Of a stretch of 64,000 nt of DNA, positions 46,398 through 49,392 are shown piece by piece; the first letter of the stretch is position 1, and the number at the start of each line of letters is the position of its first letter. Where the stretch lies: positions 5,724,067 to 5,788,066 of the forward strand of contig NZ_KK073874.1 of assembly GCF_000585375.1 (NCBI RefSeq), given 5' to 3'. The notes under the pieces were generated by a model, which was not told the origin of the DNA, made no database searches, and saw only the letters and a list, made by a program, of their open reading frames with translations. Made by a program: the position numbers and the translations under genes. The DNA comes from Cryptosporangium arvum DSM 44712. GTDB taxonomy: Bacteria > Actinomycetota > Actinomycetes > Mycobacteriales > Cryptosporangiaceae.

Positions 46398-47356
46398 TCG
46401 GTACCTCTTTTGATCAGGTGCACGCGTTGGCGGGGTACGGGCTCGACGACCGCGACGGTGTGCGCTCCCCAGGCCGCGAGGGTCTGCTCGGTCAGCCCCC
46501 GGCCGGGGGTGGAGGCGCGCATGGTCAGCGCGAGGGTCAGGTCGTGCACGGCGTCGGCGTAGGCTTCGGTCTTTTCGCCGTTCGGGGGGCGGAAGTAGTC
46601 GGCGACGAGGAGGACGCCGTCGTCGGTGAGCAGGTCCACGGCCCGGCGGTACAGGGCCTCGGCGCGCGCGTCGGACTCCGCGCGGAGCACGTGGGCCAGC
46701 ACCACGACGGAGGCTTCCCCGGTCGGCAGGTCGACGTCGAGGTAGTCGCCGCCGATCAGCGTCGTCCGCTCGCGCGGGGCCGGCAACACGTGCGGCAGGT
46801 CGACGCCGATCCCGGTCGCGTCGTCACCGACCAGGCCGTCGAGCCAGGCGCCGGAGCCACAGCCCAGGTCGACGACCAGACCGGTGCCGTCCCAGAGGCC
46901 GCGGGTGCGCAGCTCGCTCGCGACGCCCCGGGCGACCGCACCCTGGGTGGCGGCGGTGGCGGCCACCAGGGCCGGGTACAGCGCGGTCAGCGCGTCGGTG
47001 ATCGGCTCGGCCGGGTGCCCGGTACGCAGCGTCCCGGCCAGCGCGGGCCACGCCTGCTTCGGGCCGGGCGAGTGCTTGACCAGCCCGACCATCGACGCCG
47101 GCGAGGTCGCGACCAGGAACCGCTCGGCGGCCGCGGAGTTCGTCCAGCGTTCGCCGTCGGTCTCGAGCAGCCCTTTCGCCGCGAGCAGCTGCGCGAGCAG
47201 CTCGACGTCGGCCGGGTCGTGGACACCGGTGGCGGCCGCGAGCTCGGCGCTGGTCGCCGGGAGCTGCTCGAAGAGGCCGAGTTCGACGGCCGCGTGCAGC
47301 GCCCAGTAGGCGGCGTACCCGTTGATCACGTCCCAGACGGGCGCGGGACCAGTCAT
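46394..47356 (-). CDS. SAM-dependent methyltransferase with N-terminal winged helix (O-methyltransferase type)
   Basis: 320 residues. The N-terminal dimerisation winged helix runs about 1-100 (YAAYWALHAAVELGLFEQLPATSAELAAAT, partial, and LLAQLLAAKGLLETDGERW). SAM motif I is VVDLGCGSGAWLDGL and the late motif is LLTDDGVLLVADYFRPP. This is the plant-type or polyketide O-methyltransferase architecture. Start and stop both overlap neighbours by ATGA, so it belongs to the amidohydrolase operon. Confidence 0.88.
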   Translation of the reverse strand: MTGPAPVWDVINGYAAYWALHAAVELGLFEQLPATSAELAAATGVHDPADVELLAQLLAAKGLLETDGERWTNSAAAERFLVATSPASMVGLVKHSPGPKQAWPALAGTLRTGHPAEPITDALTALYPALVAATAATQGAVARGVASELRTRGLWDGTGLVVDLGCGSGAWLDGLVGDDATGIGVDLPHVLPAPRERTTLIGGDYLDVDLPTGEASVVVLAHVLRAESDARAEALYRRAVDLLTDDGVLLVADYFRPPNGEKTEAYADAVHDLTLALTMRASTPGRGLTEQTLAAWGAHTVAVVEPVPRQRVHLIKRGTE

Positions 47357-48378
47357 GGCCGGAGCACGACCTTGCCGGTGGCCCGCCGGGTCTCCAGGAG
47401 CTCCTGGGCCGCGCGGGCGTCGGTGAGCGCGAACTCGCTGTCGATCGGCGTCACGAAGCCGCCGTTCCAGTAGGCGTCCAGCACCGGGGCGAACTCCGCG
47501 CGGTCGTACGGGTCGGAGCCGAGCAGCTGCAGGCCGAAGTGGTAGGCGTACACCAGGTTGGTCTCAGCGACGTCCCCGGTGGTGTTGCCGAAGAAGACCA
47601 GCCGGCCCCGGGCCGCGAGGCTGAAGATCCCGGCCGCCCAGGTCGCCGGGCCGACGTGGTCGAGCACCAGGTCGACGCCGCGGCCGTTCGTCGCCTCCCG
47701 GACGGTGCCGACGATGTCCTGCGTCGACGTGTCGATCACGAGGTCGGCGCCGAGCTTGCGGACGTACTCCGCCTTCTCGGGCCGGCTGACGGTGGAGATG
47801 ACCCGCAGGCCGGCCGCGACCGCGAGCTGGATCGCCGCGGTGCTCACCCCGCTGCCACCGGCGTGGATCAGGACGGTCTCACCGGCGGCGGCGCGCCCGG
47901 TGACGTGCAGCGCGTGGTTGGCGGTCATCCAGACCGTGGGGATGACCGCGGCCTCCACCAGCGACCGGTCGTCGGGCACCGGGTACAGGTTCGCCACCGG
48001 GACGACGGCGTACTCCGCGTAGCCACCGGGGATCGTGCCGCCGATGACCTTGGTCTGCGGGCAGTGCCCGTCGCGGCCGTCCCGGCACGTCGGGCAGTCG
48101 TCACAGGGCACCGCGGGGTTCACGACGACGCGGGTGCCGGTCGCGATCCCGTCGCCGTTCACGGCTTCGACGACGCCGGCGACGTCCATGCCCGCGGTGT
48201 GCGGCAACTGGAAGCCCGGGATCAGCGCCGGGCCGCGGCGCTGCTGGATGTCGAGGAAGTTCACCGAGCACGCGTCGACCCGGATCAGCGCCTCACCGGG
48301 GCCGGGCTCGGGCACGGGAAGGTCGTCGACGACGAGGGTGTCGAGACCGCCGTGGACGTGATGACGAACCGCTTTCAT
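47353..48378 (-). CDS. Zinc-type alcohol dehydrogenase/quinone oxidoreductase-like enzyme
   Basis: 341 residues, MDR superfamily. Structural-zinc Cys cluster CDDCPTCRDGRDGHC is present. The usual catalytic-zinc Cys near residue 40 is replaced (VDACSVNFLDIQ has a Cys but context is quinone-reductase-like), so catalytic zinc is doubtful. NADPH site: VLIHAGGSGVSTAAIQLA. ATG 48378 follows GGAG; 14 more in-frame codons upstream are unlikely to be translated. First gene of the operon running to 44532. Confidence 0.88.
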   Translation of the reverse strand: MKAVRHHVHGGLDTLVVDDLPVPEPGPGEALIRVDACSVNFLDIQQRRGPALIPGFQLPHTAGMDVAGVVEAVNGDGIATGTRVVVNPAVPCDDCPTCRDGRDGHCPQTKVIGGTIPGGYAEYAVVPVANLYPVPDDRSLVEAAVIPTVWMTANHALHVTGRAAAGETVLIHAGGSGVSTAAIQLAVAAGLRVISTVSRPEKAEYVRKLGADLVIDTSTQDIVGTVREATNGRGVDLVLDHVGPATWAAGIFSLAARGRLVFFGNTTGDVAETNLVYAYHFGLQLLGSDPYDRAEFAPVLDAYWNGGFVTPIDSEFALTDARAAQELLETRRATGKVVLRP

Positions 48379-48580
48379 CGTCCGCTCCGTTTCGCTCGGT
48401 TCGATGCCGGGCGGTCGCAAGCCACACCGGCCTGCAACGGGGAGAACGCAGCCACATCGACGTGTGGGCGCCGCGGACGACGGAGTCTGTTGCCTACTCG
48501 CGTCGCGGTGAGACTAAGACGGCGATCGCGCGCCTGTCAACGTCATGCGGGATGGCGTACTGCGATACGCGACGGTTGCC

Positions 48581-48618
48581 AGTGGGCATGCGCCCACTAT
48601 AGTGGGCGCATGCCCACT
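48581..48618. promoter_or_regulatory. Perfect 38-bp palindrome containing a leaderless promoter and start codon
   Basis: Every base from 48581 to 48618 pairs with its mirror. Each half is a near-palindrome GTGGGC-N4-GCCCAC, so it looks like two head-to-head operator copies. TATAGT (48598-48603) at the centre is a -10 box, TTGCCA (48576-48581) is a possible -35, and ATG 48610 follows the -10 by 6 nt. A repressor bound here would block transcription start and cover the first codons. Confidence 0.9.
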
Positions 48619-49392
48619 CCCCCTCACCTCCACCGTCCGGCGGCCGAGTCGTTCGGCGTCGACGTCGCCCGGTACGACCGGACGCGTCCCGCCTACCCGG
48701 ACGCGCTGATCGCCCGGATCGTCGCGTCGAGCCCCGGCGCCGCCGTGCTCGACGTCGGGTGCGGCACCGGGATCCTGGCCCGGCAGTTCGTCGGCGGCCC
48801 GGTGCTCGGCGTCGAGCCGGATCCGCGGATGGCCGCGTTCGCCCGGGCCACCGGGGTCACCGTCGAGGAGGCCCGGTTCGAGGAGTGGGATCCCGCCGGG
48901 CGCCGGTTCGACACACTGGTCTCCGGGCAGGCGTGGCACTGGGTCGATCCGGTGGTGGGCGCGGAACGGGCCGCCGCGGTGCTGCACCCCGGTGGTGTGC
49001 TCGCGCTGTTCTGGCACGTGTTCCAGGCCCCGGCCACGGTCGGCACCGCGTTCGCCGACGCCTACGAGCGCGTCGTCCCCGACTCGCCGATCGACGTGCG
49101 CGGTTCGGCGCCGGACCCGCGGGACCTGTACCGGCCGATCCTCGACCGGGCGGCCGCCGGGCTGGTCGCCACCGGCGCGTTCGAGGGGTTCGACGAGTGG
49201 CGGCACGAGGTCACCCGGACGTACACGACGGCGCAGTGGCTCGATCTGCTGCCGACGCAGGGAACGCTGACCCGCCTGCCCGCCGACGCGATCGCCGAGA
49301 TCAGCACCGAGGTCGGCGCGGCGATCGACGCCCTGGGCGGACGCTTCACGCTGCCGTTCCGGACCGTCGCCCTAGCCGCGCGACGCTCCTGA
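48610..49392 (+). CDS. Class I SAM-dependent methyltransferase
   Basis: 260 residues. ARYDRTRPAYPDALIARIVA leads into SAM motif I VLDVGCGTGILARQF; VLGVEPDPRMAAFARATG and SGQAWHWVDPVVGAERAA follow. It is related to the protein at 23635 by the WHWVDPVVG element. The start codon lies inside the 38-bp palindrome and has no ribosome binding site, so the mRNA should be leaderless. The 3' end overlaps the convergent phosphotransferase by 21 bp. Confidence 0.88.
   Translation: MPTPPHLHRPAAESFGVDVARYDRTRPAYPDALIARIVASSPGAAVLDVGCGTGILARQFVGGPVLGVEPDPRMAAFARATGVTVEEARFEEWDPAGRRFDTLVSGQAWHWVDPVVGAERAAAVLHPGGVLALFWHVFQAPATVGTAFADAYERVVPDSPIDVRGSAPDPRDLYRPILDRAAAGLVATGAFEGFDEWRHEVTRTYTTAQWLDLLPTQGTLTRLPADAIAEISTEVGAAIDALGGRFTLPFRTVALAARRS

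Follow-up and report, generated by a model that had tools for sequence, protein, structure and literature searches.

A putative tandem operator spanning the start of a probably leaderless methyltransferase gene in Cryptosporangium arvum, and its candidate TetR-family repressor encoded at a distance

The window, that is, the whole stretch of 64,000 nucleotides of Cryptosporangium arvum DSM 44712 that was analysed, contains a gene for a class I SAM-dependent methyltransferase whose start codon lies inside a palindrome of 38 bp (48581-48618). The preliminary description of this DNA had reported a perfect palindrome, and all of its bases do pair at exactly those coordinates: the two arms, 48581-48599 and 48600-48618, adjoin directly and are 100% complementary. 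The next-longest perfect palindrome of the 64-kb window reaches only 18 bp, and across 30 first-order Markov simulations the longest one per run measured between 16 and 28 bp. The chance expectation for such an element at 72.4% GC was 7.5e-6 per 64 kb, or 0.001 per genome of 9.196 Mb. Each half reads AGTGGGC-N4-GCCCACT and so contains the GTGGGC-N4-GCCCAC motif that had been noted in each arm; an AT separates the two 18-bp sites. The TATAGT at the centre and the ATG 6 nt behind it, within the right arm, were likewise found where they had been described, with GGGCGC standing between them.

The features of the locus are collected in Table 1. The absence of an adjacent regulator gene, also remarked upon earlier, was borne out by the annotation of the neighbours, a zinc-binding alcohol dehydrogenase upstream and an APH-family gene downstream. 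The latter is convergent with the methyltransferase gene and shares a 21-bp overlap with it (49372-49392). The alcohol dehydrogenase is thought to stand outside the regulatory circuit proposed below. Upstream of it, at 48490-48519, a stretch conserved in the sister species was observed that resembles an inverted repeat, TTGCCTACT...AGTAGGCA, clearer in the same-genus genome G002 than in C. arvum, and perhaps the site of another regulator.

Table 1. Features of the methyltransferase locus of C. arvum, in window coordinates.
Feature	Position	Strand	Basis and remarks
Zinc-binding alcohol dehydrogenase, neighbour	47353..48378	-	Pfam; first gene of a block found in three same-genus genomes without the methyltransferase
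Putative rearrangement junction	48574..48580	.	blastn against sister loci
-35-like hexamer TTGCCA	48576..48581	+	16 bp 5' of the -10 box; sequence; position of TTG in relatives
Putative operator site 1, AGTGGGC-ATGC-GCCCACT	48581..48598	.	Fills the -35/-10 spacer; conserved 18-mer, N4 constrained to R..Y
Putative -10 box TATAGT	48598..48603	+	Reaches from the end of site 1 across the 2-bp spacer and 3 bp into site 2; TANNNT here in 64/77 loci
Putative operator site 2, AGTGGGC-GCAT-GCCCACT	48601..48618	.	Holds the start codon; in-frame ATG (75) or GTG (2) in 77/77 paired loci
Start codon ATG, its A the presumed transcription start	48610..48612	+	6 nt past the -10 box; same start codon across paired loci
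Candidate regulated gene, class I SAM-dependent methyltransferase, 260 aa	48610..49392	+	Pfam Methyltransf_25/11 above cut-off; operator half-site encodes the N-terminal MPT

The encoded protein scored 44.9 bits with PF13649 (cut-off 27) and 44.6 bits with PF08241 (cut-off 21.2), and both its domain and its fold are those of a class I SAM-dependent enzyme. Its AlphaFold model (pLDDT 89.5) found HvrF as the best Foldseek match, with trans-aconitate methyltransferases also among the matches. The model thus resembles small-acid methyltransferases, a likeness that does not fix the substrate; with the trans-aconitate 2-methyltransferase equivalog NF010703 the protein scored 37.2 bits against a cut-off of 320.

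Both sites conform to an 18-bp consensus, AGTGGGC-RNNY-GCCCACT, and are placed 20 bp apart in C. arvum. Site 1 overlaps the 3' end of the -35-like hexamer, and site 2 extends from the end of the -10 box over the presumed transcription start and through codons 1-3. The perfect symmetry of this copy arises because the loop of site 1 is ATGC, site 2 needs CAT for the start codon and the AT spacer lies within the -10 box. No ATG, GTG or TTG was found in frame between the ATG at 48610 and the conserved AESFG motif, so this ATG is the start codon unless translation begins far upstream. The arrangement TATAGT-N6-ATG would place the start codon at the very 5' end of the transcript, and the same offset was observed in 64 of the 77 related loci with paired sites described below. 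Judged by this layout, the promoter is very probably leaderless. About 21% of the mRNAs of S. coelicolor are reported as leaderless, with the -10 motif TANNNT, in a passage of PMC4895711, and a passage of PMC4633059 states for mycobacteria that a 5'-terminal RTG is enough for translation.

A pattern search of the complete C. arvum genome located the paired site at this single place. Three further single exact matches to GTGGGC-N4-GCCCAC were present, and none of them carried the flanking A and T together. When up to two mismatches were allowed, 50 matches were obtained, versus 234 per strand for a reversed-pattern control, so that no excess was seen; as the looser matches fall below the control, they are uninformative alone and no wider regulon is claimed in this genome.

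The preliminary description had staked its reading on conservation at orthologous loci, and the pair proved to be conserved. A total of 84 methyltransferase loci were compared, consisting of the best 80 of 419 related loci, the C. arvum locus and three same-genus genomes (G001, G002 and G003), and a pair was counted when two sites with at most 3 mismatches each were present. Paired sites were found in 77 of these 84 loci, with a period of 20 in 51 and of 21 in 26; since the 80 loci were the top-ranking ones among 419, and one seed peptide had MPT as its first residues, this proportion is not an unbiased rate. The side-by-side sites proposed earlier are supported by this comparison. In all 77 the methyltransferase reading frame opens with a start codon inside site 2, and MPT is encoded in 68. 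The hexamer whose last base is the third of site 2 was TANNNT in 64 loci and CANNNT in the remaining 13, and at each of 15 shifted positions (-9 to +6) TANNNT was found in 0 of 77. In 57 of the 77 loci a TTG precedes site 1 by 2-9 bp, compared with 4.4% of background 8-mers. The comparison thus agrees with the earlier suggestion that promoter and start codon are both enclosed by the element. Three of the loci without a pair, L048, L100 and L102, retain one site with an in-frame ATG, that of L100 with 2 mismatches and that of L102 on a contig that is cut. At the methyltransferase start of the other four (L028, L055, L066 and L101) no site was found, the closest candidates having at least 5 mismatches.

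Several of these loci showed peculiarities of their own. In the Planobispora loci L034 and L067, a third, slightly degenerate site lies just 5' of site 1, upstream of the pair. In L100 the sequence AGTGGGCGCATGGTCACT occurs twice without any change, at -205 and at -21 as counted from the start of the tblastn match, a distance of 184 bp; one copy holds the start codon, and the TetR gene of this genome lies elsewhere. The contig of L028 is titled as a Rhodococcus MAG and is listed under Cyanobacteriota in the origin list of the tree, so its bin or its label is probably wrong. In L101, a mycobacterial ortholog without the operator, GGAGAG precedes the ATG in the same frame and place and the protein begins with MPT; it is possible that a ribosome-binding site has here taken the operator's stead, with a switch from a leaderless to a leadered start. 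Beside the methyltransferase gene of L046, a 25-aa TetR-like remnant was found (L046:4706-4780), an intact TetR gene being present elsewhere in that genome.

A divergent tetR gene adjoins the methyltransferase in 72 of the 77 paired loci, those of the three same-genus genomes included, with start codons separated by 45-141 bp (median 68.5). An Rv1404-like MarR regulator had been considered first and was abandoned when this conserved neighbour proved to be a TetR protein; no MarR gene was found beside the methyltransferase among the six window genes scanned. In the other five paired loci (C. arvum, L032, L046, L053 and L057) an unlinked TetR ortholog is encoded in the genome. A whole-genome search for 11 loci without an adjacent tetR gave a TetR match in six genomes (L032, L046, L053, L057, L100 and L102) and, at E <= 1e-8, no match in the genomes of L028, L048, L055, L066 and L101, of which L028, L048 and L101 are MAGs. 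The TetR gene was hence present in the genome for 77 of 77 loci with the pair versus 2 of 7 without it (Fisher p 6.8e-7, which is indicative only since the loci are related). L028, L055, L066 and L101, which lack a site at the start codon, all belong to genomes without a TetR match. The exceptions to the correlation are L048, with one site and no TetR match in a MAG of 4.7 Mb, and L100 and L102, with a TetR gene in the genome and no complete pair.

Furthermore, 197 genomes of the class were scanned with the pattern alone. The pair was detected in 16 of them, at one exact place per genome, and the reversed-pattern control gave 0 matches in the same 197 genomes. All 16 pairs adjoin this methyltransferase and 15 have the divergent tetR, the exception being C. 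arvum. In the 72 linked loci, the tetR gene is preceded by a ribosome-binding-site-like motif in 64, and its start lies 16-112 bp from site 1, so that one operator can control both genes. Four of the seven tetR genes situated away from the methyltransferase (L122, L123, L124 and L127) are preceded at 61-88 bp by a site with no more than 2 mismatches; none was found upstream of L125, L126 or the C. arvum gene (L108), the best candidate of the latter having 5 mismatches. Taken together, these sequence comparisons suggest that the likely regulator is the TetR-family protein encoded beside the methyltransferase in most relatives.

The preliminary description had placed the regulator elsewhere in the genome, and a single TetR ortholog was indeed found there. 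At E <= 1e-15 the only match in C. arvum is G000:C1:5146875-5147462, approximately 625 kb from the operator; the divergent short-distance module seen in most relatives is thus absent from this genome. The protein is 72-79% identical to the TetR of the sister species, and the next paralog in the genome reaches 29% identity (E 3.4e-11). An N-terminal helix-turn-helix (TetR_N, PF00440) was recognised with 34.6 bits against a cut-off of 24, and the confident structural model displays the all-helical TetR fold with a C-terminal ligand/dimer domain. Within the helix-turn-helix the protein keeps the TSR and AKGVLH motifs, which are invariant in 78 of 78 relatives. The C. arvum tetR gene retains a TACTAT-N6-GTG arrangement without an operator, and its autoregulation has probably been lost.

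The genes flanking the C. arvum tetR match those of the TetR-methyltransferase locus of G001 on both sides and of G002 on one side. No methyltransferase was found near it in those 20 kb, and the corresponding locus of G003 showed no synteny with it in 20 kb. Conversely, the block formed by the alcohol dehydrogenase, an O-methyltransferase-like gene, an amidohydrolase and a small gene is present in all three sisters without the methyltransferase (in G002, coverage extends 2 kb upstream of the dehydrogenase). By blastn, similarity to the region upstream of the sisters' dehydrogenase stops at 48573 (G002), 48574 (G003) and 48580 (G001), and in each comparison the match to their methyltransferase loci sets in at 48581, which places the breakpoint at the left edge of the operator, within 7 bp. 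The -35-like GTTGCC stands inside this junction. By this synteny the C. arvum tetR occupies the ancestral locus, and the methyltransferase with its complete putative promoter-operator lies beside the alcohol dehydrogenase operon. The C. arvum methyltransferase has the longest branch of the ingroup and was unplaced in the tree; a clade with G001 and G002 was not rejected (p-AU 0.645), and the constrained tree had the higher likelihood. The gene may have moved within the genome, or a copy from outside may have taken its place.

On this comparative basis, we consider it quite probable that a TetR-family repressor of the leaderless methyltransferase gene, released by a ligand and acting in trans, has its tandem operator at 48581-48618. 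The comparison establishes the conserved sites, their position relative to the -10 box and start codon, and the co-occurrence of tetR; from these we infer binding, two dimers, repression, the leaderless start and the ligand. Two TetR dimers would bind, one per 18-bp site, 20 bp or about two helical turns apart. So bound, they would occupy the -35/-10 spacer and -10 box together with the transcription start and start codon, exclude RNA polymerase and thereby block transcription, and a small ligand of the repressor would relieve the repression. In C. arvum the circuit would operate in trans from the tetR gene about 625 kb away, with no autoregulation; as this repressor is unlinked and no site lies upstream of its gene, its continued control of the methyltransferase is presumed.

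The same facts could mean that the operator is a relic which functioned when the two genes were linked, the methyltransferase having become unregulated or subject to another regulator after the rearrangement. The unlinked repressor without a site of its own and the long branch of the methyltransferase fit this reading; nevertheless, we regard it as unlikely, since neither 18-bp site has departed from its perfect form and both match exactly those of two sister species, whose whole methyltransferases are only 57-58% identical to that of C. arvum, and the helix-turn-helix of the repressor is intact. It is much less probable that the operator is as proposed and the TetR protein is mainly an activator or a dual regulator. 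TetR-family activators exist, AtrA being one named in a passage of PMC3511530, but a dimer bound over spacer, -10 box and start should exclude RNA polymerase, and a passage of the same source associates short divergent spacing with repression, most TetR regulators that diverge from a neighbour closer than 200 bp being its repressors.

We give scarcely any credence to the idea that the 38-bp palindrome works as a DNA structure, that is, a cruciform or hairpin recognised as such. The full symmetry of the C. arvum locus, shared by L079, had led to the earlier suggestion of a cruciform, which did not stand up to the comparison: the perfect 38-bp symmetry is confined to these 2 of 77 loci, the arms are exactly mirrored around any centre in 7 of 77, and loop complementarity within loci averaged 1.87 of 4, as against 1.83 in shuffles (p 0.254). 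Moreover, the spacer is 2 or 3 bp, and the conserved unit is each 18-bp site. An RNA element, in which a transcript started upstream folds into hairpins that control translation, is just as implausible, for although a 7-bp RNA stem could form from each site, the -10 box stands at a fixed place inside and its transcript would include just one half of site 2, the N4 loops are variable, no Rfam family matched 48300-48900 at E <= 1, and the presence of the element tracks a DNA-binding protein.

Should the tandem operator be confirmed in its proposed role, a methyltransferase family of several actinobacterial families gains a candidate regulator and a sharply defined putative operator. It would be a natural case of an operator under coding, promoter and repressor constraint simultaneously, and a testable example of a repressor-target pair surviving genomic separation. 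A more tentative extension, about which we are slightly more doubtful than confident, is that the segment from the -35 box to the start codon forms a self-contained 37-bp cassette that can be transplanted and still obeys a distant repressor, the C. arvum tetR having become a constitutive repressor on losing its operator. In such a cassette the right half-site of the repressor would double as codons 1-3; it would need no leader or ribosome-binding site, so the gene could be moved anywhere. If this were true, the C. arvum genome would represent such a move, cut at the cassette edge, and an autoregulated switch would have turned into one whose repressor is constitutive.

The operator site strings had no match in the literature searched, and nothing on this TetR-methyltransferase pair was found there. 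In the passages of the Streptomyces regulator literature that were checked, AGTGGGC occurred in an AcrR probe, a primer and a KstR site, none of which is this operator. The closest general likeness is to divergent systems of the tetR/tetA type (PF00440), which share a TetR-fold regulator, a short divergent region, two palindromic operators and an enzyme or pump as target (a passage of PMC3511530). Here, in contrast, the putative operators are only 2-3 bp apart, one in the -35/-10 spacer and the other around a leaderless start codon, and in C. arvum regulator and target are unlinked. One-component repressors of SAM-dependent methyltransferases are described for M. tuberculosis in a passage of PMC5526998, namely the pairs Rv1404-Rv1405c and Rv2887-Rv0560c, in which the regulator is a MarR protein instead of a TetR protein. 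In the QacR-DNA complex (PDB 1jt0) two dimers occupy one operator, an arrangement that is deduced here from the DNA only; the C. arvum TetR is about 9% identical to QacR, and other TetR structures score alike. The top Foldseek matches of the C. arvum protein were EthR2/Rv0078 and other actinobacterial TetR regulators, which share about 20% identity with it and are not orthologs. Paired operators are already known for TetR repressors, and what is distinctive of the present system is the start codon within the operator and the relocated promoter-operator.
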